This document shows positions 156-14,057 of a stretch of 14,057 nucleotides of DNA, piece by piece; within the stretch, counting starts at the first letter, position 1, and each line of letters begins with the position of its first letter. The translations under genes were made by a program, and so were the position numbers. Source of the stretch: Blastocladiella britannica (taxonomy: Eukaryota > Blastocladiomycota > Blastocladiomycetes > Blastocladiales > Blastocladiaceae); NCBI GenBank assembly GCA_025349905.2, contig MU625017.1, positions 1-14,057 on the forward strand, written 5' to 3'. The notes beneath the pieces were generated by a model that worked only from the letters and a program-made list of their open reading frames with translations, had not been told where the DNA came from and made no database searches.

Positions 156-2420
156 ATGAACGTTCTTGACCTTCCCGACGACCTTCACGTCAATATTGCC
201 CGGTACCTGACGCTGGCAGAGGTGGTCGCCTTTCGCTCGACATGCCGCACGCTGCATACCTCAGACCTTCTCCTGCTGCCACACCCAACCTTTGCCGCCC
301 TGGATGCAGCCATCAATGGCAATGTCGACGCTCTGAAGCGGGCCCGCGGTATTGCCAAGCGCACGGGCGAAGTGACCGATGGCATTGATTCGTTCTTCGT
401 CAAATTGGCGACGCGTCTGGTCCGCAACGCCATGCTGTCGGAGACCGTCGCCATCACCATTCGCGACGCGGGCTTCCAAGTCACGAACGATGCTGCCACC
501 GCGGACATTTTGATGGCACTCGCGACGCACAATCGGCCGAACATGTTCCCAATGGTCATGGCCGTGTTGACGGGCGCCGCCATTGGCCCGACTGATCTGT
601 GGGCCAGCGACGATGACTCTGCTTTCCTTGTGCTGCGCTTGGCCCGCATCTACGCCTTTCTCAAGTCTCCGATTACAATGGACGATCACCCACTCAAAGA
701 CATTGCCGAGGCGATTGCTTCTGCGCTGGTTGAGCGCCATGCGCCAAAACTAAAGCACCACGCAATGAACTCGCTGGAAGTGGTACTTGCCCTCGAGAGC
801 GACGAGGACGAGGAAAAGCTTCTGATTGCCGCTCGCGTCATTCGTGGTGTTCTTGCCCGTCCGTTTTTTATTCTCTTCTCAAGGATGCCACTATGGTCTC
901 GCTGACAACCTTGTTGGTTTATAGGAAACGGATACCCAGACAATGCCGCCGTGGTCGCCGTGAACCCTCTTCCACGCCTCGTCCCCCACTTGCGCCATCC
1001 CACAGAAGAGATTGCCCAGCAGGTCTCCTGGGCGCTCTGCAACTTGGCAGCGCACTCGGCCGATTCGGCAGAAGCCGTGGTCAACTCCGGTGCTCTCCCG
1101 CTGCTCATTGAACATTTGGCGGATCGGAAGAGTGACGTGCTGCGCGACCAAGCGGTCTGGACACTTGGGAACGTGGTGGCCGATCGCCCCTCGTTCCGCA
1201 ACACGCTGGTCGAGCTGGGTCTTGTAGAGCGCATCGCGGACCAGGTGACGGCCGAGACTGTGTCACTCAAGGACGTGTCTTTCCCACGCGACGTGGTCCT
1301 CAATCTCGCATGGGTCCTCAAAGTCACGGCGTACAAGTGGCGTGAGGAGGACAATGCCAAGCTCGACTGCCTGGTCCCCGCGCTCATCCAGCTGCTGCAG
1401 TCCACCGACGACGATACCGTGAGCGACGCGGCCGACGGACTCAAGAACTTAGTCAAGGATACCGCCACTTCGACGTGCATGCGCGTGGTGGAGCTGGGCG
1501 GCCCCCGTGCGCTCGTGGCTCTGATGCGCGACATGTTCGACAAAGACCACCTGCAGGCCCGCGAGCCTCGGATCTTCAAGTCGGCGCTGATTGCTCTGAC
1601 GTGTCTGACGTCGGGTGACGATACCCTGTGCCAGAGTGTGATTGACGCTGGGTTGCTTGACATTGGCCTGAAGCTGCTTGCGCACCCGGTCCCGCTCGTG
1701 GTCAAGGAGTTTTTGTTCACGCTGTCCAACATCACCGCGGGCACCACCGACCAGACGCGCGCGGTGAATGCGGTCGGGCTGCTGCCACCAATCGCCGAGC
1801 TGCTGTTTGATCAGAACAACGCGGAGCGGATGGTCCGGGCTGAGGCCGTCTGGGTGCTTGCCAACGCGTCGGAAAAGGGCGACGACGGGTCGCACTCCGA
1901 CATCATGACCGTCCTGCAAGACTGCCACCACGTCGTCGCCATGTACAAGTCGCTCAACTCGGACCTGAACGACCGCGAGGTGCGCGTGGCCGCCAAGGGC
2001 ATCGTGAATGTGCTCAAGTACGAGGTGGCCAACCCGATCATGTTCCCGCTCTTCAAGTCGACGGTCCAGGAGCTCATTCAAGCGGAAGAGAATGCGAACG
2101 AAACAACCTCTCTGGACATGGCGGCCGGGCGCGGGGGGTCGGTGGGGGACACGATCGACGAGATCCGCGAGCTGCTGGGGATCGAGGAGCCCGACGCGGA
2201 GGAGACGGACGAGGATGCGGAAAACAAGAATCCCGACGGTGAAGACGTGGAAGGCAAGCCTGTTGATGCTGACGATGTTGGGGAAGAGGAGGCGCTGTCC
2301 AACCCTGTGCCAGATGAGTTTGTCGAAGAGGGCGAGTACAAGACCGAGCATAACAGCGAGAACGATGACCAGGACGAGGGTGCAGCACCATTGCAGCCGC
2401 CGGCCGAGTCGCGCGAATAG
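156..2420 (+). CDS. F-box protein with importin-alpha-like armadillo repeats and acidic tail
   Basis: Exons 156-846 and 925-2420 join in phase 1 across a 78-nt GT..AG intron (donor GTGTTC, branch-like CTGAC, acceptor TTTATAG), giving 728 aa. ATG 156 is the first in-frame start. Residues 3-40 form an F-box (LDLPDDL, IARYL, then CR), a motif that binds Skp1 in SCF ubiquitin ligases. A helical region of about 190 residues follows, then tandem ARM repeats from about residue 195 to 600. These closely resemble importin-alpha: SWALCNLAA, AVWTLGNVV, FTLSNITAG and AVWVLANAS correspond to its Trp/Asn NLS-binding ladder (W266/N270, W309/N313, N499, W540/N544). Other rungs are changed: V364 replaces Asn in the third repeat, and D replaces Trp in the fourth. 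The last 80 residues are very acidic. No basic importin-beta-binding segment is visible. It could be a substrate adaptor rather than a transport receptor. F-box/ARM fusions are known (plant ARABIDILLO, Dictyostelium Aardvark). Confidence 0.8.
847..924 (+). other. Intron of the F-box/ARM gene (78 nt)
   Basis: GTGTTC donor, CTGAC branch-like motif and TTTATAG acceptor. Splicing joins the phase-1 codon G|GA. Unspliced reading of the upstream frame hits a stop at 903-905, and the ARM frame has no credible ATG of its own before its first repeat, which supports one spliced gene rather than two. If the intron is wrong, the two parts would be separate genes. Confidence 0.75.
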
Positions 2421-2653
2421 AGGAAAAATGCAACCAATCACGTTCTTTGCAGGCCTTAGTCTGTTTGGCCATTAAGCCATTGAGCCACAACCACCGAAGT
2501 TCTCTCCTTCTTGGTAATCCACCGTGACGACTGCAGCACTCTGACAACGCACACATTCGACCGTCCGAACCGGCTTCTTTTGATATCTCAAGTTGCGCTG
2601 GCGGGTCACCCCCTTCTTTAGACCACACACACATAATAGAAAAACAAAACTAT
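2421..2653 (+). other. Intergenic region between the F-box/ARM gene and the SLC35F-like gene
   Basis: This 233-bp gap between two same-strand genes holds the 3' UTR of the first and the promoter and 5' UTR of the second. I see no tRNA, repeat or convincing ORF. The last 25 bases before the ATG are A-rich (ACACACATAATAG then A-rich), typical of the leaders in this window. Confidence 0.5.
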
Positions 2654-4017
2654 ATGGCTGGTACTAAAATCAACCTCCGTCGCGTCGCCGGCGTCTTTGG
2701 CTACGGTCAGATCCTGTCGGTGCTCGTGGGCTCGTCGCAGCTGTTCAACACGGGCCTCAACCTGGCCACCAACGCGTCGGATCCGCCGTTCTACATCAAC
2801 TTCCCGCAGCTCGCGTCGCACTACACACTTCTGTTTACGGTGTTTGCGATTGGACACGTGGTCATGCACCTGTGGGACAAGCAGCGCGTGTCCTCGGGCG
2901 TGCGCGAAAAGGATGCGGAGCCTTCGTGGCCGTTTGACTTGAAGGTGTGGTTCCAGCGGGCGCCGTACTACCTTGCATTTGGGATTTTTGACTGGTACGG
3001 CAACTGGACCGTAACCAAGGCGTTCGGGTACACGAGTCCGCTCTCGGCGTTTTTGCTGGTACGCGCACTTTTCTGTGAGTTGACTTTGGACCAATCTCAC
3101 ATGCGCCATTTCAGAACTCGGTCTCGACTCCGTTCACGGTCCTATTTTCGATGCTGTTCTTCAAGGCTCGGTACCGCCCCTTGCACTATCTCGCGATTCT
3201 GGTCACCATTGGCGGCCTCGCCATCATCACCTGGCAGGATCTCGTGCAGCCGAGCCCTCGCCTGTCGCTGTCTCCGTCGGATCCTGGTGCAAAATCTTTA
3301 TTATTTTTTATCTTTCCATAGAGAGCGAAAAACACTCATGAAATATAATGAATAACAGACAAGGTCTGGCTCGGCAACGTCCTCGGCCTTCTCTCGGGCC
3401 TCTTCTTTGCGCTGGCCAACGTGACGCAAGAGTGGGCCGTGAAACGTCTCGGCTCGATTCCGGAACTGTGCATGTCGCAGGGTCTGTTCGGTGCTCTGGT
3501 CGCGGTGGTGCACGTCCTGATCTTTGACCGCGACGAAGTGACCGCGCTCCTGTCGCTGTCGGCGTCGCAGTACGCCCCCTTCTTCTGGAACTACGCGGGG
3601 TACTTGGCGGTGATGCTGGCGCTGTACTCGGCGGGGCCATGGTACTTTGGGTACGCGTCGGCGACGCTGTTCAACATGTCACTGCTCACGTCCGGGTTCA
3701 TGGTGCTGATTGGGTCGGTGGTGGTCCTCAAGACCAGCGAAATCACCGCCATGTACTTCGTCGGTTTCCTGGTCATGGTTGTGGGATTGGCCGCATTCAA
3801 CTTTGATCCGAAGGGGTGGCGCGACGTGTTTATGGTGCCCGAGGGGATTTCGGGCGGGATTGAGGCGGCTGCTCCGTTGGCGCCGGCGGCGAGCGAGGCG
3901 GCAACGTTGAACGGGGATGTTCAGTCGGTGACCACGGCGGTGCCCAAGACCGACGGTGACGACGACAAGGACGATCCCGAAGAGGTCAAGGACGGACTTG
4001 TCCAGGCAGCGGCGTGA
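2654..4017 (+). CDS. SLC35F-type (DUF914) multispanning membrane transporter
   Basis: Three exons, 2654-3058, 3115-3286 and 3359-4017, give 411 aa. The introns are 56 nt (phase 0, donor GTACGC) and 72 nt (phase 1, donor GTGCAA). The protein is mostly hydrophobic with about ten predicted helices, beginning near residues 11-32, 55-73, 103-120, 140-152, 157-175, 196-214, 230-247, 266-284, 290-316 and 322-340. The segment YYLAFGIFDWYGNWTVTKAFGYTS (105-128) matches the SLC35F1/F2 signature around the fourth helix, and NMSLLTSGFMVL (298-309) matches the late SLC35F helix. These proteins belong to the drug/metabolite transporter superfamily and sit in internal or plasma membranes; substrates of most F members are unsettled. 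The C-terminal 55 residues are acidic and probably cytosolic. The stop lies only 26 bp from the convergent LIPT2 stop. Confidence 0.85.
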
Positions 4018-4043
4018 TTACAATTTACAACAATAATACAATT
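4018..4043. other. 26-bp gap between convergent SLC35F-like and LIPT2 stops
   Basis: The gap is AT-rich and contains two copies of TACAATTT; read on the minus strand these give TGTA-containing 3' signals. Each 3' UTR must run into the opposing coding sequence or use this gap for both polyadenylation sites. Confidence 0.5.
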
Positions 4044-5143
<1,100 letters not shown>

Positions 5144-5180
5144 ATTTTTTATACAATGGAATAATTTGCGAAAGATAATG
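5144..5180 (-). promoter_or_regulatory. 37-bp gap between ERCC4 stop and LIPT2 start
   Basis: On the minus strand this AT-rich gap carries TGTATAAAAAAT directly against the LIPT2 ATG. It must serve as 3' end of ERCC4 and leader of LIPT2, unless LIPT2 transcription starts inside ERCC4 or the two are cotranscribed. The TATA-like string sits too close to the ATG for an ordinary TATA box. Confidence 0.35.
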
Positions 5181-8100
5181 TCATTGCCCCGGCCGATGCT
5201 CAATAAACTCGACAAACCGGGCCATGGCATTGTCCGCATCGCCGATCGCCACCGCCAGCCGTTGTCCCGTACTTCTCTGATCCTCGGTGGCCGCAATCGA
5301 GTGGGCGGCGGCGGCCTGCACGGTCTTGGCGACGGTCGGGAACGCGCGCATGATCCGGTCGGCGTTGCCCAAGTGCACGCCCGGCATGGCCCTGAGCATG
5401 CCGCTCGGGAGCGCGCGGACCTCGCCGTGGGCCAGCGCCGCGTCGTCGTCGCCCTGCTCACCGGTCCCCAACGCCATGGCGGTCTCGGCCGAGGGTTCCG
5501 CCCGTCCGCGCTTGAGATCGTCCAGCAGTTCGGCCGAGTTGGCGGGGGATGCGGACCACACGATGCGCAGTTTCGGGAAATGGATGGTCAGCAGCACCAC
5601 TTTCGCCGCCACCGCGTCCTGCGCCGACTGCAGCATGCTGCTGGTATTGGACGCCAGTGGCGCGTCAAATGTACCAGCGCCACTCCGCGACGATCCTCCT
5701 CCAACCGCGTTGGTGAACAGCGACATGGTTGGGGCTTCGGTTGACCGGCCGTCCACGCCATCGCTGAGCTCAATCAGCAGGACCGCCATCGCGTACAGCC
5801 GGCACATGGCCTCGGCTTGCGTGTACAGCCGCCCCGACGCCAGCGACTGCACTAAGTCCGGCATGGACTTGCGTTCCACCACCAAGTCGGGGGCAAGCAC
5901 GTAGTCGCCGACCGTCAGCGTGACGGGAACAATTTTCAGTCCACGTAAGTGGAGGGCCGACGGCAGAGCCGCCCGGAACTCGCGCACATCCACCACCACT
6001 GATCGCTGGGTCGGGAGCGTGGCTTCGGCGCCTGTGGTTGCAGCCCGAACGGTGCGTGGGCCACCCAGAGACGATGCCCCCGGGTCAGCGATACCCGCAT
6101 GAGCTTCCACCTCGTCGTGCGTGCGCGCTCCCACCGCGCCCAGCGACGCGCCCATGGCGGGACCCGTCGTGAGCGGAATCACCATGCGCGCGGCCATGGT
6201 GATCACGCGCTCAAATGACTCGCGCTCGCGCCGAATGCGCGCCAGGTACTGCATTTCCTCGGCCGAGTCCGCGTACAGCAAAAAATATACACGCGGGGTG
6301 AAGGTTTCGGCGGCATCGGCGCCCGTTCTTTTAGTTAACACGCGCGTGGCCGCCCACACCTCGATTCGGCGGACAAACCCTGGGTTGGGATCGTACAGCA
6401 CAATCGTGTCGGGCTGGACGGACGGGAGCACGTCGTCATCGCCATCGTCCAGGTCCTTGTCAGTCGTGACGTGAATGTAGATATCGGCGTTGGTGACGCC
6501 AATGGGGCCGGTGTTTTCATGATGCTGGCTCTCGTCTCCCTCAACTTGGTCAAGAGCTAGGTCCTGGTTGCGTGCCGCGGTTGGATCATTGCGGTCGAAT
6601 CCGAGCTCGCGCTCGGCCTGATATAGCGCCGTCGAAATGAGGTTATCCGCCTCGTTCATGGCCGCCTCCAAAGGGTCCGTGCTGCCACCGGGTCCCATTT
6701 GGGTCCGAGAGGCCGCTGTCGCGGTGGCGGCAGCACTTGTTCCAGAAGCAGCTGTTTGTGCAGCGGGGCCACGGACGCGGCGGCGTTTGGCAGCAGCCGA
6801 TCCAGCGACGACCGGCGCATTGCTCGTGGCTCGCGGCGGTGGGAGCATGGCGGTAGCAGAAGCCGAGGTCCCGGCATCGCCGGCTTGCCGATTGGTGGAA
6901 GTGGTTTTCGCCAACTGGCCCTTGAACCGCATGTACGCCAGAAACCCGTGCTCGAGGACGCGGTTGCCGTGCACGAGAAACGACGACAGCTGGCGGGCGG
7001 TCCGCCGGTCATTGACGAGAATCAGGATTCGGTGCCTCCGTGCCTCCTGTTTGACTGCTGCTGTTGTCGTCGGCGACGTTGGTGAGGCAGCAACCGCGGT
7101 CACTTCAGCCAGCACCTGGTTGACCACGACCCATTTTGGTGGCACTTCGAGCGTTGCGTGCACGCCGAGCTGCTTTTCGACCACCGCGAGCTGATTCTCA
7201 GCATCACCCGTCGCATCAGCCTCGGCATCGGGTTGCGGCGACGTACGCGCCAAGTGCACGCGCTCCCTTGCAATCCCGACCAACTGCGCGCCCGCATCCG
7301 ACCCAATCCATGCCGCGGGCGTATCGTTTGGGTCCCTCCACGGTGACCGCATCGCCATCACTGCCGCGCCGACCACCGCGTCCAAATGCATGAGGAACGC
7401 GACCGCATCGCACGCAAACAGTTTTCGGAACAGCGACATGAGCACCTGCAAGTCGGCGTAGAGCCGGCGCGCGCGTGAGCCCGGTGGGCGGGTACCGAGC
7501 CCAATGGCGGCGAACCCGTGGTTGGTGAGCGCCTCGGCGAGCGTGCGCGACGACGAGTCGGCTCCTCGAGCCCCACGGCGCCGCCGCCGACGCCGACCGG
7601 CTTCGGTTTCGTTTGCGGCCGACTCTGCCGACATTTCCGCTAGCAGCGACGATGGGCCCATGGCGGCAGCCGACACGTCGGCGGCCATGCCAATGTCGGT
7701 CTTTTCGAACGCTAGGACCGTCGGGTCGGGGAGTAATGGGCGCAGTTCGGCTAACGCTTGGGCAATCACATCGAGCAGCCGCGTTTCTAGCATGTGCATC
7801 CGAGGAGGCAGCCCAACGTGCAACTCCACGGTCTCGATCAGTTCCTGTTGTTGCTGTGGTGACGTTGGTGCGAGGGATTCTGCGACAGCCACATGGAAGC
7901 GCGGCCACGCCAAGAGGGTCCGAAGTTGCAGGGCGCCCATCAAGCGCTCCAGGTGCGAGAGGCCGCCCAGCAGCCGCTCGGCGTGCTCGGTGAATGCGCG
8001 AATAAAGGCTTGCTATTCCCACTCGTTAGTCTTGCTTTCAATTTGCAAACGACATGATCGTACGCTATTCTCCAGCCGGACCAGCCGCAGAATAAAGGCC

Positions 8101-8599
8101 TCGGTGGTCATTGGTGCGACTCTTTAAATGCGTTGTGCGGGAGTGGGTCAGTCCGGGCTGCCCCTATTCTAGCAATAGTACAATACCGCTCGGCATTGCG
8201 CACAAGCACGCCGGTAATCATGGCCACGGGCACTTTTTCCGACAACAAGTCGACGACCAAAATGCGTGGTGTGATTAAGAACACGCCGCCCTGACGGTAC
8301 GCGTTAGTACGGGCCGCGCCGCCGGTCTCGGCAGTGACAATGTGCACGTGCGGGTTTGCTTCCATGCCCAGTGCTGAGGGCCGGTGATCGGACGGCCGGC
8401 CGGCGTCAATCACAAACACCAGCGCTTCGGGGATCGCAAAGGTGCGGAACAGAAACCGCAGCAGGTGAGTGGTGCCGAGGCCGCGGCCCAGGACTAGTAA
8501 CGCCGAGTCGGCATCGAGCAAGTCGGTGACGATGGCGCGGTGGAACGCTAGTGGCAGTTCTGACGGTTGCACTGGCGCCATTATTGCCGTAGTGGCCAT
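5181..8599 (-). CDS. ERCC4: XPF/ERCC4 (Rad1/Rad16) structure-specific DNA repair endonuclease
   Basis: Three exons, 8599-8187, 8121-8064 and 8012-5181, give 1100 aa; introns are 65 nt (phase 2) and 51 nt (phase 0, branch-like ACTAAC). XPF with ERCC1 cuts the 5' side of lesions in nucleotide excision repair and acts in interstrand-crosslink repair and recombination. The N-terminal helicase-like domain is recognisable (GRGLG 39-43; QGGV, then TPRILVVDLLSEKVP 110-124; EAFILRL; WPRFHVAV) and lacks a working Walker A site, as is normal in XPF. The nuclease motif is intact: GDYVLAPDLVVERKSMPD, with D860, E870, R871, K872 and D876. RSVVVDVREFRAALP precedes it. A helix-hairpin-helix region lies near 1025-1090 (MPGVHLGNADRIM). 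At 1100 aa it is longer than human XPF (916) because of low-complexity inserts, including seven arginines (297-303) and a possible nuclear signal KRRRVR (566-571). Confidence 0.95.
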
Positions 8600-8639
8600 A
8601 GTATAGGTGACGTTGTTTTATAAAAATGCAAAGAGAGGT
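8600..8639 (-). promoter_or_regulatory. 40-bp gap between C2-protein stop and ERCC4 start
   Basis: On the minus strand it reads pyrimidine-rich, then TTTTTATAAAACAAC, then CACCTATACT before the ERCC4 ATG. A TATAAAA string lies about 20 bp upstream of the ATG. The gap has to contain or overlap the upstream poly(A) site and the downstream transcription start. Promoter function is inferred from position only. Confidence 0.35.
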
Positions 8640-10502
8640 TTACCGCGGAGGGAATTCGGGGCGGTACGCGCCGCCCGATGGCGGGTATCCCTGCGATTGC
8701 GGCTGCGGAGGGTACCCGCCGTACGCTTGCTGCGGTTGAGGCGGGTACCCGCCACTGCTGCCGCCGGTCGCATTCGAGTACACGCTACTGCCGCCGGTCG
8801 TGTTGGCGTACACGCCACCGCCACCGCCTACGGGTGCGCCGTATGCGGGGCCGTAAAGGCTCGGGTCAGGCTGCACCGGGTAGCCCCCAGTGTACGATGG
8901 ACGCACCGGCTGTGCGCCGCCATACAGCGACGGGTCCAGTTGTCCTTGCGGCGGGTAGCCACCGGTCGCCTGGCCGTAAATGGCTCCAGCTGGCGGATAG
9001 CCGCCGGTCGTCTGTGGTGGGTACCCACCGGCAGCAGGTTGCGGTGGGTAGCCGCCAGCGGCCGGAATGGGCGGGTAACCGCCGGCGGCCGGAATGGGCG
9101 GGTAACCTCCGGCGGCCGGCTGCGGCGGGTATCCTCCTCCACCCGTGGTCTGGCCGTAAATGGGGCCTGGCACCGGCGGGTATCCACCAACTGCCGGCTG
9201 TGGTGGGTATCCTCCGCCCGTCACCTGCGCGCCAATCGACCCGCCCGTCCCTTGCATCCCGATACCGCTCACCGGCGGGTATCCTGATGGGTAAGCGCCA
9301 GGGATACCGCCGCCGCCAATGCTGCCGCCGGTCTTGTTTGGCGCCATCGGTGGGTACGGGGCCGGGCCCGATCCAATCGACCCACCGGTCGCGTGGCTGC
9401 CGATGCCGCCGCCGGGGAACGCGGGCACGGGGCCGCCAGTCGGGCGCGAAGCACCGAGGTTCGGCGACACGGCGAAGGCGGGCGCCTCGGGCAGGGCCGG
9501 AAGCATTCCAGCAACACCAGCAGGAGCAGCGGTCGTGGCAGGGGTCGTGCCGTGGACGGGCAGCGGCGGGTTGGACGACGAGATGCGCTGCGGAATCGCG
9601 GGGTGCTGCGAGACGGCGCTCGGGTGCAAGGGAGCCGGGGCGCCGATTGGGGCCAGCGCACCACCGGGCATGGCGCCGGGCGGGAGCGTTTGGAGGCGCT
9701 GTGGTGGGGCTCCGTGCGGTTGGGCGGTGTGCGACGTCGGGGCGACGCTCATAGCCGAAGTACCAGCGCCGATACTACCACCACCAGCAGACGCGTCGGC
9801 CGGAGGCTTCCAGCCGCCCGGAGAGGCGCCAGCAGCGGCACCGGCGACACTCGAACCGGAGGCGATCCGCGCAAAGTCGATGCCCTGCGGCTGTGTATCT
9901 TGGCTGGCGGAGAATGCGGCCTATATTTTGATGGGCATGCGTGAGTGTGTTGATTTGGAAAATAGCAAGCATCGATCATCACTGCGGTGGCAATGAAAAT
10001 GAAGAAGACGACCGTACGTTGGGCTCGAACCACAGCGACAAGCGAATCTCGCCACCGGCCTTGCCGGCAACGGTGCGAATCTCGACCCACTCGTCAAAAC
10101 CAGGGTGGTCCCTGGTCGAGGCGCCGCGCTTGAGCACGGGGGCAATCGACACCTCCAGATTGTACCCGACCTGTTTCTCGGACAAGAAGCCCTTGTGAAT
10201 CACGTCGATTTGAATGCTGCGCTCCGACTTGTCGGGACGCGACGACACGGGGAACGCCAGCGGCGCCTGCTTTGTCCACTGCGGCGCCGCGTGGCCATTG
10301 TCGGCCACGTCCGTCTGGTGCTTGGTGTTGCCGAGCGTCACGCGCACAAACGGGTCCATCTTGGACAGCGGGTTGGCCGACACATTGAAGAGGCCGCGGC
10401 CGGCGGCTTTTGTTTTCATGTTCTTGGTGAGGAAGGCATTCACTTGGGTCAATATCAAGAAAACGTACTTGGGAGCACGAACAGGGTGCCAATAGACGCC
10501 AT
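8640..10502 (-). CDS. N-terminal C2-domain protein with a long Gly/Tyr/Pro-rich tail
   Basis: Three exons (10502-10469, 10406-10018, 9920-8640) give 567 aa; introns are 62 nt (phase 1, GTACGT) and 97 nt (phase 0, GTACGG). The first exon has only 11 codons plus one base, MASIGTLFVLP. Splicing to AGRGLFNVS restores a canonical C2 beginning, followed by KMDPFVRVTLG, PQWTK and a final strand ending LWFEPN, so the C2 domain covers residues 4-141. C2 domains bind membranes, often with calcium; only some of the usual calcium-ligand aspartates are apparent. The remaining 426 residues are disordered: Ala/Gly/Pro-rich, then TGGSIG motifs (three copies), then 11 GGYPP motifs. This layout resembles plant SRC2 and, more loosely, fungal Inn1/Fic1 cytokinesis proteins. 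A membrane-recruited scaffold or condensate-forming protein is plausible, but the function is not established. Confidence 0.8.
9015..9137 (-). repeat. 27-bp coding tandem repeat, unit GGYPP[QI]PAA
   Basis: Four full 27-bp units (9137-9111, 9110-9084, 9083-9057, 9056-9030) and a fifth partial one encode the nonapeptide GGYPP followed by QPAA or IPAA. The two central units are almost identical at DNA level, pointing to recent slippage or unequal exchange. More diverged GGYPP copies lie on both sides (about 8650-9290). Unit length is a multiple of three, so copy-number changes keep the frame. Confidence 0.9.
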
Positions 10503-10686
10503 GACCGAGTGTTTAGTTTTTTTTATTGTTGTTTTGTGTTGAGCGAAAGAGGAGAAGTGATGTTTTGTTGGGTTGCCAATTTCGCGGCAGAGTCGGACAA
10601 CGCGCCAAGCAGATTCCAAGGCAGAGGCAGGTAAGTACACTTATTTAACAACAAGATCCCCGATTTAGATATGCATTGCTTTCACG
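10503..10686 (-). promoter_or_regulatory. Intergenic region: MZM1 3' end and C2-gene promoter/leader
   Basis: The 184-bp gap lies between two minus-strand genes. Read on that strand it goes from an AT-rich MZM1 3' part (with GTTGTTAAATAAG), through a mixed segment, to an A-rich leader (ACAACAATAAAAAAAAC) ending in GGTC before ATG 10502. I see no RNA gene or ORF of substance. Confidence 0.4.
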
Positions 10687-11262
10687 CTAATAGTTGACGC
10701 CGACGCGTGGCAGGGCCTCGGATCCAGCGCCGCAGCAAGGGATCCGCGCGCCCTTGACGTACGGCTTCTTGTTCTCGTCATTGTCGTTGATCTCGTGCCG
10801 CTTTGGGTCCAGTTGCAGGTCTAATGTACAGCATTCCTTGCATCTGTTAACTCGGTCCCACAAGGAAATAAAATGAGACAATACTATAACGATCTCCGCC
10901 CTTATTGACGGCCTGCACAATGTTGCGCTCAAGATACACGGCAATCGCATCGGCCTTTTCCAACAACTGTTGTCATTCATATGGTGAGCCTCTGGAATGG
11001 GGCGACCATTTATAAAGAATTCGTACTGCCTCAGACTCGGTCGCGTCCGTCACTGCGCGAGCCTCCAGGAACTGCTTGCGGGTTTCGAGATGCGCGGCTG
11101 TCCCAAAATTTTCCAACCACGAATGAATCCCATGTTTCCAACCAAGCCAAGGTATGGATGTGTACCATGAAGAGTGGTCAAGTCGCCTGCAAATGTCTGC
11201 TGCTGCACGCGCAGCAACCGCCTGTATGCCGAGAGCGCACGCGTCCGAAATGCGGTTGCCAT
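10687..11262 (-). CDS. MZM1: LYR-family complex III assembly chaperone (Mzm1/LYRM7)
   Basis: Four exons (11262-11166, 11097-11027, 10966-10885, 10820-10687) give 127 aa, close to yeast Mzm1 (about 123). The introns are 68, 60 and 64 nt, with phases 1, 0 and 1. Mzm1/LYRM7 works in the mitochondrial matrix, where it stabilises the Rieske iron-sulfur protein before Bcs1 inserts it into cytochrome bc1. The LYR-type motif appears as ALSAYRRLLR (9-18), with A in place of L as in several Mzm1 proteins, followed by Phe24 of the LYR family. YLERNIVQAV (67-76) and DRYNLQLDPKRHEINDND (81-98) match the later conserved block of fungal Mzm1. The donor at 10884 was chosen over one six bases upstream because it yields DRYNL. 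Its start codon is 52 bp from the divergent ATP12 start. Confidence 0.88.
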
Positions 11263-11314
11263 TATTCTGATATTTACCCTTCTCGATAAAGAGCGAAATT
11301 ACAAATCGACATAT
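11263..11314. promoter_or_regulatory. 52-bp bidirectional intergenic region of MZM1 and ATP12
   Basis: The two start codons point away from each other with 52 bp between them, so both 5' leaders and core promoters must fit here or extend into the neighbouring coding exons. The sequence is AT-rich with GATATTTACCC and CTCGATAAAGAG, and ends in CATAT before the ATP12 ATG. No clear TATA box is placed for either gene. Both products are mitochondrial respiratory-chain assembly factors, which makes co-expression plausible. Confidence 0.65.
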
Positions 11315-12414
11315 ATGTTTTCCATTGCAGCAGCAGTGACCCGTCGCAGTGCCCCAGTGGCCGTGGTGTCCGCGGCTACATTTTGCGGAATGCGCGCCCT
11401 TTCGACCGCACGCGTGCTCCTTGATGCTGGACCTTCCGATGGCGCGTCCATTTTTTACTTGACAACAATTCGTGCGGCCGTTGTTGACATCGACCCATAA
11501 AAAACAGGCAAGGCACCCGAGCTGAAAAAGTTTTGGCGCGCCGTGACGCTTGCCGAGGAAAAGGGTATAATATTCTTTTAGAGCGTTCCTCGTTATTGTG
11601 TTAACGCGTGATTCCAAAAACAAAAGATGGCTGGCAGGTGCTGCTCGACGGCCGTAAAGTGCGGACACCCAAGGGCACGCCGCTCGTGGTTGCTCGTGAT
11701 CAGACCATGCTTGCACACCTCGTGTCGGCCGAATGGGAGGCGCAGGAGAAGCTTCTTCGCGCGTACTCACTGCCTCTGGTTCGTTTGTCTATTCCTATTA
11801 CATGCACGAGAGCTGATGCGACCAAACATACAGACCTCCATCATCGTGCGGTCCTTGGACGACCTGAACGATGCCGAGGTTCGTCGCGAAACGATCGACA
11901 AGCTCATGAAGTTCTTGCAAACCGACGCGACTTGGTCCGTTATTGCGCGCTTCTTCCTTGACCATGAAATCATTCCTGACCCAGATAAAAACAACAACAA
12001 AAAAGCTACTTGCAAGAGCACCCGCAAGTGCTCGTGGACTTGCAAGAAACGCACTGGGTCCCACTGGTCGATTGGGCGCGCAAGCGGTTCGGCGTCGAGC
12101 TGCGCACCACCACGTCGCTGCTGGCCCCCGCACAGCCCGCGGCCACCACCGCAACGCTGCGTGCGCACGTGGAAACGTACTCGCCCCTGCAGCTGTCTGC
12201 ATTTGAACGCGCGGTGCTCACGTCCAAGTCGTTCGTGATTGGGCTTGCGCTCGTTGAAGGCGCGGTGTCGGCCGAGGAAGCTACAGCGGCGGCAAGCGTG
12301 GAAGTGCAGGCGCAGATTGACGTGTATGGCGAGGTGGAGGACGCGCACGATGTGGATCGCGAGGATCTGCAGCGGACGCTGGCGTCGACGGCGCTGGTTG
12401 TTGCCAAGATCTAA
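11315..12414 (+). CDS. ATP12: F1-ATPase assembly chaperone Atp12 (ATPAF2)
   Basis: Five exons: 11315-11471, 11508-11564, 11627-11778, 11834-11934 and 12006-12414 (291 aa). Introns two to four (62, 55 and 71 nt) are well supported by the family motifs they restore: KKFWRAVTLAEEK|DGWQVLLDGRKVRTP, SLPL|TSIIVRSLDD and TDATC|YLQEHP. Atp12 binds the F1 alpha subunit in the mitochondrial matrix and prevents its aggregation before the alpha3-beta3 hexamer forms. The N-terminus (MFSIAAAVTRRSAP) is a typical presequence. THWVPLVDWARKRFGV matches the conserved C-terminal Atp12 block. The first intron is uncertain. A 36-nt version (11472-11507) is unusually short; a 99-nt version (11414-11512) uses an AG five bases further on, removes a segment of poor GC3 and gives 270 aa, joining ALSTAR to APELKKFW. 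ATG 11315 fits both. Confidence 0.9.
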
Positions 12415-12549
12415 ATGTATTGTATTGTTGATGCAAATGTGAATCCATGTACCGACTTCCCATCAAGCATCTTTTTGATCACTCGTTTCCATCTTCCTCT
12501 CAGGCGTCCCAAACCGAGATACCACCTTTAAATTGTAAATAAATAAGAA
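12415..12549 (+). other. Intergenic region: ATP12 3' UTR and ADAM-like promoter
   Basis: This 135-bp gap starts with TGTATTGTATTGTTG just after the ATP12 stop, similar to the TTGTATTATTGTTG found after the LIPT2 stop. An AATAAA hexamer lies at 12538-12543, only seven bases before the next ATG, so it is more likely leader sequence than the ATP12 poly(A) signal. A short inverted repeat (ATCAA...TTGAT, near 12462-12479) is too weak to call. Confidence 0.4.
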
Positions 12550-14019
12550 ATGATGCTGGGACGCCGCCAACCGTTACTTTTGCTCCTCGGGCTCTTCCTG
12601 CTTGCCGTTCCGGCAGTGCAGGTGGCCGCTGAACCGGCACCCACGCCTTTCAGTCCCTCTGAAACGGCTCCCATGCTCACTCGGCGCGGTTCGTGAACCT
12701 CGCTTTTCTTTCTCCTGATCGCCCTGGAAACCCGATCAAAAACTCACTTCAAATACATTTCAACCAGGCGTGGAGGTGGATCGCTCGTCCGAACACTACT
12801 TTGTGGACATTTCAACACCCCAGGCGTCAGTGGACCTCTTTCACTTTCAAAAACGTGGAGCCGAACACCCGCACCACGCCGAGACTCTGTCGCTCAGTAT
12901 AAAGGGTCCTGGCAAGAAACCACTGCACCTTGATCTCCGCCGGAGCGACGATCTGCTCAGCCCCGGGTACCAGCGGCTCGCTGTCAAGGGGGAAGGGTTG
13001 GTGATCCAGAAGAAACCGCGCCAGCGGTGCTGGTATCGCGTATGTTTTGATATTTTTTCTTCACTTTCTCCAAAAAAAAAAAAAAAAAAACTCATTTTGA
13101 GATCATGCTTACTTAGGGATCCGTAGCTGGACACTCGGGATCGCTTGTCGCGCTTTCGACCTGCGACGGAGTGGTACGTAATTTCTTCAGTCGCTTTTGA
13201 AAAGCACCCTTCCTCTTAAAAAAAAATTCCAGAATGGAGTGATCCACCTCTCTGCGGCAGAGCGGTACACGATCCATTCCATGCCCGACAAGAAGGCAGT
13301 GGGGCAGCCCCAAGGTGGAAAGCAGCTGCGTCGTCGACAAGCACTTGACCAAGAATCCCGCACACATCTCCTGGTTCGCGACACGGGTCTTTCGACCTCG
13401 GACGAGGCCGCGTCCGAGGAATCCATGGACGGTCAGCGCATGTGCGCGGTCGACGCTCGAGTGGAGGAAGTACCCCTTGGCGACGAACCCACCAAGCTCG
13501 CCAAGCGCCAAGTCATGTACTCGGTAACCGGAAACAAGACCGTGCACCTGCTCCTGGCCTCGGACGCGGCACGCACCGCCGACTGGTCAGGCGACTTTGC
13601 CGAGCAGTCGCTGATTGACATGGCCAACTACGCGGCGGCGCTGTACGCGCAGCCCGACTCGGGTTTGCTCCCTTCGCCGTACGTGATCAAGCTGGTGCTG
13701 GTCGGGACGATTGTCTCCGACGATCCGACGGTGTGGGCGGCGGGCGGGGACGGGAAAGGGCCCGTTGACGCCGATATCATGCTTCGGTCGTGGTGCAAGT
13801 GGCGCGCCGACGCTAAGCGCGCGGCAATTGCTAGCGGCGACACTGCCAGCGCCATTGCGGTGCACGACATTGCGCACTTGGCGACGGGGCGGACTATGAC
13901 TAGCGGGCACGAGGCGGTCAAGTTGGCGGCGAGTATTGAAGGATACGCCAACATGGGCAGTGCGTGCGAGGAGGATCGATCGTGCGGGGTCGTCCGTGGG
14001 GTGCGGGTCGTGAACTTGG
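12550..14019 (+). CDS. Secreted or membrane ADAM/reprolysin-like metalloprotease (5' part)
   Basis: Exons 12550-12688, 12768-13039, 13117-13173 and 13233-14019 (introns 79, 77 and 59 nt) give at least 418 residues. A further donor, GTACGC, at 14020 starts an intron that leaves the window. MMLGRRQPLLLLLGLFLLAVPAV begins a clear signal peptide; a second ATG follows at once. Residues 50-160 look like an ADAM propeptide: YFVDIST, a Cys-containing CWYRGSVAGHSGSLVALSTCDG, then HLSAAERYTIHSMP. A dibasic KR (247-248) in KLAKRQVMY directly precedes KTVHLLLASDA, the first strand of the protease domain, so Kex2/furin-type activation is likely. HDIAHLATG and YANMGSACEEDRSCGVV (C401, C407) match the reprolysin region just upstream of HExxHxxGxxH, which is beyond the edge; activity therefore cannot be judged. 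Confidence 0.85.
13072..13090 (+). repeat. 19-bp poly(A) tract inside intron 2 of the ADAM-like gene
   Basis: Nineteen consecutive A residues lie in the 77-nt intron 13040-13116, between the donor GTATGT and the acceptor ACTTAG. Another A-run (nine bases) lies in the next intron. Homopolymer length here is likely variable between individuals and prone to sequencing error, without effect on the reading frame. Confidence 0.9.
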
Positions 14020-14041
14020 GTACGCTCTTGGTTTTTTTTCG

Positions 14042-14057
14042 TTTTTTTTTTTTTTTT
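14042..14057 (+). repeat. Poly(T) tract at the window edge, within an intron
   Basis: Sixteen T residues end the window, preceded by another T-run. They follow the donor at 14020, so they lie in the next ADAM-gene intron. A sequence that stops in a homopolymer may mark a contig break. Confidence 0.7.

Follow-up and report, generated by a model that had tools for sequence, protein, structure and literature searches.

Nucleotide 5 of the U1 small nuclear RNA (snRNA) is normally a U (pseudouridine) that faces an A at intron position +4, and the donors (5' splice sites) of Trichomonas read GTAYGT. Here we consider the donors of the aquatic fungus Blastocladiella britannica, where +4 is mostly C or T, together with the U1 genes of the same genome (15.26 Mb, 624 contigs), starting from a window of 14,057 bases that is one entire contig (C473). 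It is very probable, as judged from the sequences, that U1 and the introns have covaried species-wide in B. britannica, with a G at U1 nucleotide 5 (G5) matched to donors with C or T at +4. The closest described systems begin with the Saccharomycotina, in which +4 A is associated with the METTL16 and SNRNP27K genes and +4 U with their loss (Parker et al. 2023, PMC10581693). A change at U1 nucleotide 5, which faces intron +4, was weighed in that survey of 240 species, where every U1 identified, from 236 species (227 of the 230 Saccharomycotina, 9 of the 10 outgroups), had ACUUACC (PMC10581693). The preferred +4 base was changed species-wide in the Saccharomycotina as in B. britannica, but there U1 ACUUACC and U6 ACAGA are invariant and METTL16 and SNRNP27K were lost, whereas in B. 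britannica U1 nucleotide 5 is changed, both genes are kept and C is the commonest base (PMC10581693). Yeast and Giardia share with B. britannica a pyrimidine (U) at +4 but, unlike it, keep ACUUAC in U1, leaving a U-U pair at +4 (PMC3510501).

Altered U1 5' ends are known from the laboratory, as compensatory mutations (Zhuang and Weiner 1986, cited in PMC11732430, a review of donor classes) and as position-5 mutants tested in human cells (PMC2766253). As in B. britannica, an altered 5' end pairs with an altered donor and position 5 faces +4 (PMC11732430, PMC2766253); the engineered U1 was tested on single introns, whereas in B. britannica the change is natural, is carried by both U1 genes found and is accompanied by adapted donors across the genome (PMC2766253). 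A natural change of the U1 5' end also occurs in the diplonemid S. specki, where a second U1 has a C stretch, but this U1 is additional to a conserved one, and its pairing with the same canonical donors is comparable (PMC12621601). Splice sites were changed genome-wide in Fritillaria borealis, as here, but with a strictly conserved U1 5' end, the changes lying in U2AF and N6-methyladenosine (m6A) (PMC13326754). In nucleomorphs, the U1 recognition motif is described as conserved. No report was found in the open-access literature, as far as its accessible text goes, of a natural change at U1 nucleotide 5 matched by donors, nor of the +4 base in Blastocladiomycota; subscription papers lie mostly outside this search, and priority is not firm. 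The pair in B. britannica looks like a natural lock-and-key co-change at a U1 position usually thought to be fixed.

The donor bias was first noticed in the window, where an earlier note had read 21 donors as 14 C, 7 T and no A at +4 and had called a C-rich +4 unusual. Twenty donors were placed by us, chosen with judgement from a donor-blind model, an informed model, NCBI proteins and reading of the sequence, and these gave 14 C, 6 T and no A. The donor-blind run in the window returned 17 introns (+4 C 9, T 6, A 1, and G 1). Four of these were judged to be wrong, namely the A case at 10890, the G case at 13171 and the T cases at 5208 and 11835, although all are still counted in the 17. At 5208 and 11835 the errors were a fused gene model and an antisense prediction, while the alternatives to 10890 and 13171 were GTATT at 10884 and GTACG at 13174. 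NCBI-annotated donors in two mapped window genes (GTCCG in the ARM gene; GCGCG, GTATA, GTTCG, and GTCCG in ATP12) had C or T at +4 in five of five cases. The first of the ATP12 donors, which the note had left ambiguous but without +4 A, is annotated as the GC-AG donor GCGCG and has C at +4. The absence of A from 21 donors had a p of about 0.03 against base composition, at 15.3% A after GT; because this was only modest evidence, a wider sample of 20 stretches of 10 kb was taken.

The first set consisted of these stretches, from contigs C1-C20 (L008-L027), and the window. A small gene finder was applied in which the donor rule was GT only; it combined base-content models for coding sequence and introns with a data-trained acceptor model, and GT and AG ends were imposed by this method. 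In-frame donor/acceptor pairs were then re-scored locally to give a posterior for each intron, and introns at a posterior of ≥0.9 were called confident. GTs lying ≤60 bases from the confident donors of the first set, 656 in number, served as decoys. GC content ranged from 0.55 to 0.63 across the window and 19 of the stretches; the remaining stretch, L020, is mostly N (6,917 of 10,000 bases, a gap or withheld sequence). A held-out set of 14 loci outside training (3 stretches of 10 kb and loci around snRNA and splicing genes) was analyzed with the parameters frozen.

The first set yielded 199 blind introns, or 187 (95 gene models) once overlapping and short models were removed, with +4 C in 91, T in 72, A in 15, and G in 9. 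At the 117 confident introns among the 186 that could be re-scored, +4 was C in 65, T in 43, A in 9, and G in none, compared with C 178, G 197, T 171, and A 110 in the decoys and with fractions of 0.32 C, 0.36 G, 0.17 T, and 0.15 A following GT anywhere in this DNA. The blind model returned the familiar donor preferences, −1 G, +3 A, +5 G, and +6 T, with −1 G in 76 of the 117 donors (the two thirds given in the earlier note), +3 A in 74 and +5 G in 65. The method thus regained the common donor features and departed from the usual pattern only in the base at +4. As the posterior cut was raised from 0 to 0.99, the combined share of C and T rose from 163/186 to 72/76. The held-out set gave 62 introns, 58 with a scorable donor and 35 at ≥0.9, with +4 C in 19, T in 14, A in 1, and G in 1; the single A and single G are both from L005, a locus in which the informed model fuses several genes and uses both donors, and they were kept in the count. 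Introns were predicted at four of the six loci holding U1, U2, U5, or U6 genes, and an eight-locus group that includes six snRNA loci contributed 8 donors at ≥0.9 (C 4, T 4). Donors derived from three NCBI proteins (1 in the ARM gene, 5 in METTL16 by the first mapping solution and 4 in ATP12, which had one solution) had C or T in 10 of 10 (C 6, T 4).

Pooling of the confident donors gave 84 C, 57 T, 10 A, and 1 G among 152 (chi-square of 87.9, p of 6e-19 against the 656 first-set decoys), which corresponds to enrichments over decoys of 2.04 for C, 1.44 for T, 0.39 for A, and 0.02 for G. C is thus the commonest base, as the earlier note had it, with T a nearly equal part of the signal and A rare rather than absent. 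In exploratory comparisons, +4 C was accompanied by +5 G in 59/84 donors against 29/57 for T (p of 0.022, uncorrected, with five positions tested in one run and three in another), and +4 T by +3 A in 44/57 against 46/84 for C (p of 0.008, uncorrected). Both signals are weak; +6 T showed no association with the +4 base (p of 0.3), and the decoys showed neither the +5 nor the +3 coupling. These couplings would weakly fit two subclasses of donors.

The 117 introns end in CAG (63), TAG (36), AAG (16), or GAG (2), and YTRAY lies 8 to 45 bases from the 3' end in 70. Odd motifs resembling branch sites, ACTCA in 30 and CTCAC in 20 of the 117 (last 50 bases), were also seen despite a standard branch-pairing sequence in U2. 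Counting matches in the sample to a regular expression that combined donor, branch site and AG gave no excess over reversed controls. From the GT-AG ends, the branch site and the standard U2, U5, and U6 described below, the introns are judged to be major (U2-type) spliceosomal introns.

The U1 covariance model (RF00003) matched the genome twice, at 47.1 bits each over model positions 1 to 166 of 166 (E of 6.4e-10). Both genes start AUACGUACCU, not AUACUUACCU, and read AUACGUACCUUG... against the model consensus AUACUUACCUGG...; the 5' end is ACGUACCU in place of ACUUACCU, with one base changed. The changed base is nucleotide 5, facing intron +4, and is G in both genes, where the canonical start would be AUACUUACC. 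Of the four matches to a whole-genome pattern with position 5 left free, two coincide with the U1-model matches and have G, and the remaining two are absent from the model's matches. The covariance alignment follows the U1 cloverleaf and includes a loop I of the GAUCA...AAG type (GAUCAACAAG) and an Sm-like site, AAUUUUUG, while at the aligned place of loop II (the U1A site, AUUGCAC expected) AUCGCAC was found. Unconstrained folding gave −65.4 kcal/mol, better than 200 of 200 shuffles (z of −4.0), and a multibranched structure with three stem-loops. Both genes are called divergent U1 on the model match, on being the only such gene found and on complementarity to the genome's own donors, and they would encode the expressed U1.

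The two genes lie near contig ends, at L002:156-321 and L003:1501-1666, within about 400 identical bases that are followed by different neighbors, which suggests that the assembly broke at a repeat, either dispersed or homogenised. One neighbor, read by eye from the sequence, is what we take to be a uS7 (RPS5)-like gene, with the donor GTGTG. The U1 search scored 41 of 234 candidates and the U6 search 47 of 546, in each case only the best, and the snRNA gene counts are therefore lower bounds. U1-like patterns were also met in viral_contigs, in 5 stretches with G5 and 19 with U5; 11 of these 24 (5/5 with G5, 6/19 with U5) were scanned and had no Rfam match at the gathering score.

The fit of U1 to the donors was assessed by duplex energies in a fixed register, with RNA modifications and proteins ignored. 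The mean energy with the 117 donors was −3.71 kcal/mol with G at nucleotide 5, compared to −1.53 for A, −0.96 for U, and −0.63 for C, and G5 was better than U5 for 102 donors, worse for 13 and equal for 2. When separation from 400 sampled decoys was considered, the actual base was the best of the four at 9 of 11 U1 positions including position 5, the exceptions being positions 1 and 7. The enrichments observed fall in the order C > T > A > G, as pairing with G would predict. The compensating change in U1 that the earlier note had offered as one possibility is supported by the G at nucleotide 5 of both genes. The U1 5' end AUACGUAC and the consensus donor GUACGUAU both hold the palindromes UACGUA and GUAC, and self-pairing of either might be possible.

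Other spliceosomal RNAs were standard where found. The one U6 match (74.3 bits) reads GAUACAGAGAAGAUUAGC (...GAUACAGAGAAGA...) with a standard ACAGA box, so that no G faces +4; two U2 matches keep GUGUAGUAUC, for standard branch recognition, and one U5 match keeps the standard recognition sequence CGCCUUUUACUAA. LUC7 was found at one place, and a search for U12 had no match at an E of 0.001, which does not show its absence.

Both genes whose loss defines the yeast type of +4 switch, METTL16 and/or SNRNP27K, are present. METTL16 was recognized as Methyltransf_10 with the NPPF motif at 41.4 bits, over the cut-off, in a Pfam family that also matches bacteria and an archaeon. The NCBI protein has 491 aa, and CNPPF is invariant in 13 aligned proteins. 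Its matches in PDB were PsiM first and then METTL16, and in the predicted model (mean pLDDT of 67.6) the methyltransferase part resembles PsiM and human METTL16. After residue 360, in the VCR/KA-1-like region, helices and strands are predicted at a pLDDT of mostly 30 to 60, and comparison with spMETTL16 bound to U6 gave a TMt of 0.53 to 0.54 and an rmsd over 12. Since the C-terminal domain is poorly modelled, specificity for U6 is considered likely only. SNRNP27K (L005, minus strand, about 1440-1310) scored 23.7 against a Pfam cut-off of 23.1 bits over model positions 2 to 20 of 56. Aligned to human 27K (E of 0.002), it shares KYRQYMN and keeps the residue aligned to Met141; the alignment ends at residue 143, and the tail past Asn142 is divergent, presumably unlike the human tail.

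These data bear on the other explanations of the bias. The same donors would be expected from a change in U6, which the earlier note had proposed as a G in place of the central A of the ACAGA box, pairing with +4 C, but the only U6 match in the genome, among the best 47 of 546 candidates, has the standard box. That idea was rejected on this basis and is considered very unlikely. The checks the note suggested on U1, U6, and METTL16 were the right ones. Somewhat less remote, yet still improbable, is the route of the yeasts, in which METTL16 or SNRNP27K is lost or inactivated, U6 A43 is left unmethylated and +4 A gives way to U (here also C). This would accord with the Saccharomycotina, where loss of these genes accompanies +4 U (PMC10581693), with the frequency of T here and with the partial, tail-divergent SNRNP27K match. 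However, the METTL16 gene has CNPPF and a model like human METTL16 and SNRNP27K has the Met141-aligned residue, both proteins being putative in activity, and the route predicts U rather than C and leaves the near absence of +4 G and the U1 G5 unexplained. Loss of METTL16/SNRNP27K was rejected since both genes are present.

Two further explanations concern the donors themselves. That a GC-rich genome simply yields C at +4 could appeal to the GC content and to the 32% C after any GT, but G follows GT in 36% and stands at +4 in 1 of 152. Furthermore, intron interiors (T 0.35, A 0.29, C 0.21, and G 0.15) are AT rich, so that base composition would push to A or T and the content model pulls against C at +4, not towards it. 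Base composition was rejected because it is contradicted by the near absence of G, and it is the least credible of the explanations considered. It is also highly unlikely that the gene finder or the reader misplaced the donors. The donors were placed from DNA sequence and gene models, and the four blind window calls judged wrong show that errors occur, but the GT-only model regained the usual donor features, a higher posterior cut raised the share of C and T, and the held-out set and all ten NCBI-annotated donors agree; misplacement was rejected on the posterior trend, the held-out set and these annotated donors.

The preferred explanation, the matching of U1 G5 to the donors, is proposed to act in early 5' splice-site recognition, where G5 would pair with +4 C in Watson-Crick fashion or with +4 U by wobble, tolerate A poorly and reject G. 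From these pairing preferences, donors genome-wide are proposed to have settled on GTA[C/T]G; pairing would then drive the donor bias, and either U1 or the donors may have changed first. The later U6 step is unchanged in sequence, the ACAGA box being standard; this box would face C as a mismatch or U as a partner of unmodified A43 and accept both. The retention of the METTL16 and SNRNP27K genes argues that the +4 base is set by the U1 step rather than through a lost U6 m6A pathway. The frequency of T could reflect a compromise, because U alone would pair with both U1 G5 (by wobble) and U6 A43, and the greater frequency of A (10/152) than of G (1/152) is perhaps a remnant of a contact between U6 m6A43 and A. 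The more specific proposal, that +4 selection passed from U6 m6A43 to U1 through one U-to-G change at its nucleotide 5, the entire genome now being spliced at donors pairing with U1 and mismatching U6 while METTL16 still methylates U6, has in our view about an even chance of being correct.

Several observations weigh against matching of U1 G5 to the donors. U1 and the donors are known here from DNA sequence and gene models alone, and the NCBI gene models behind the ten donors may themselves be predictions. T is nearly as common as C although the G.U wobble is weaker, and a second influence, such as pairing with U6 A43, may be needed for its frequency. A stands at +4 in 10 of the 152 confident donors, and G in 9 of the 187 unfiltered blind introns and, at the loci with snRNA genes or pattern matches, in 2 of 14 introns before filtering. 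The U1 score of 47.1 is below the Rfam gathering score of 69.5 bits, which is the curators' noise threshold and not a biological feature, and the last stem-loop fits poorly, and the minimum-energy fold computed without constraints has the Sm-like stretch and a portion of the 5' arm base-paired. Since both U1 genes lie at contig ends in identical bases, the assembly may lack further copies. The spliceosomal gene set seen is also incomplete, as at an E of 0.001 there was no match for U1-C, whose 38-position domain may be split by an intron, or for U4, which does not show its absence.

The window donors can be described by gene (plus strand unless stated). A single 732-aa protein at 156-2420 consists of an F-box followed by importin-alpha-like ARM repeats, carries the NCBI label armadillo-type protein and has listed relatives, other than itself, at 24 to 36% identity. 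Its intron at 859..924, donor CCC|GTCCGTTT with +4 C, is supported by NCBI protein P0001, which maps to the junction, and by the blind model. In the SLC35F-like transporter gene the blind model placed two introns with +4 C, at 3059..3114 (CTG|GTACGCGC; Pfam SLC35F in the flanking open frames) and 3287..3358 (CTG|GTGCAAAA). ATP12 has four introns taken from NCBI protein P0040 mapped to the window: the GC-AG intron at 11442..11507 (ATG|GCGCGTCC, GCGCG, +4 C), and those at 11565..11626 (AGG|GTATAATA, +4 T), 11779..11833 (CTG|GTTCGTTT, +4 C), and 11935..12005 (TTG|GTCCGTTA, +4 C). At 12550-14057, a fungal gene truncated by the contig end encodes an M12B propeptide domain of the ADAM-like kind. This M12B metallopeptidase-like gene has blind-model introns at 12689..12767 (GCG|GTTCGTGA, +4 C; propeptide domain downstream) and 13040..13116 (CGC|GTATGTTT, +4 T), and one at 13174..13232 (GTG|GTACGTAA, +4 C) from the informed model, trained on blind donors, where the blind model preferred 13171 (GTGGT). 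A last donor, GTACGCTC with +4 C, was read from the sequence and opens an intron running off the contig end (14020..14057).

The minus-strand introns were placed by the blind model with one exception, at 10821..10884 (ATA|GTATTGTC, +4 T), which comes from the informed model, the blind model having preferred 10890 (GTTAT, +4 A). A small unnamed gene has an intron at 10967..11026 (GCA|GTACGAAT, +4 C), and the C2-domain gene has two with +4 C, at 10407..10468 (CAA|GTACGTTT) and 9921..10017 (AAC|GTACGGTC). In the XPF/ERCC4-like gene they lie at 8122..8186 (GCG|GTATTGTA, +4 T) and 8013..8063 (AGC|GTACGATC, +4 C), with the ERCC4 domain in the next exon. The lipoyl/octanoyl transferase-like gene, whose LplA-B_cat domain (E of 1.8e-5) is just under the Pfam cut-off, has introns at 4704..4765 (GAG|GTCTCTTC, +4 T), 4561..4622 (TCG|GTATTGAT, +4 T), and 4361..4424 (TTG|GTTCGATC, +4 C), the domain being in the exon after the last.

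Since the U1 5' end is usually treated as invariant, a U1 and donors that have moved together would amount to a natural double-mutant experiment. B. britannica separates the contribution of U1 from that of U6 and m6A at +4 and makes it possible to test which snRNA determines the donor consensus, a point under dispute. Gene-prediction software that expects GTRAGT may go wrong in this lineage. If the proposal of a U1 change that took over +4 selection is correct, +4 would be set at the U1 stage in B. britannica, contrary to the current view of a hand-over to U6, and the U1 change would probably mark part or all of the Blastocladiaceae.

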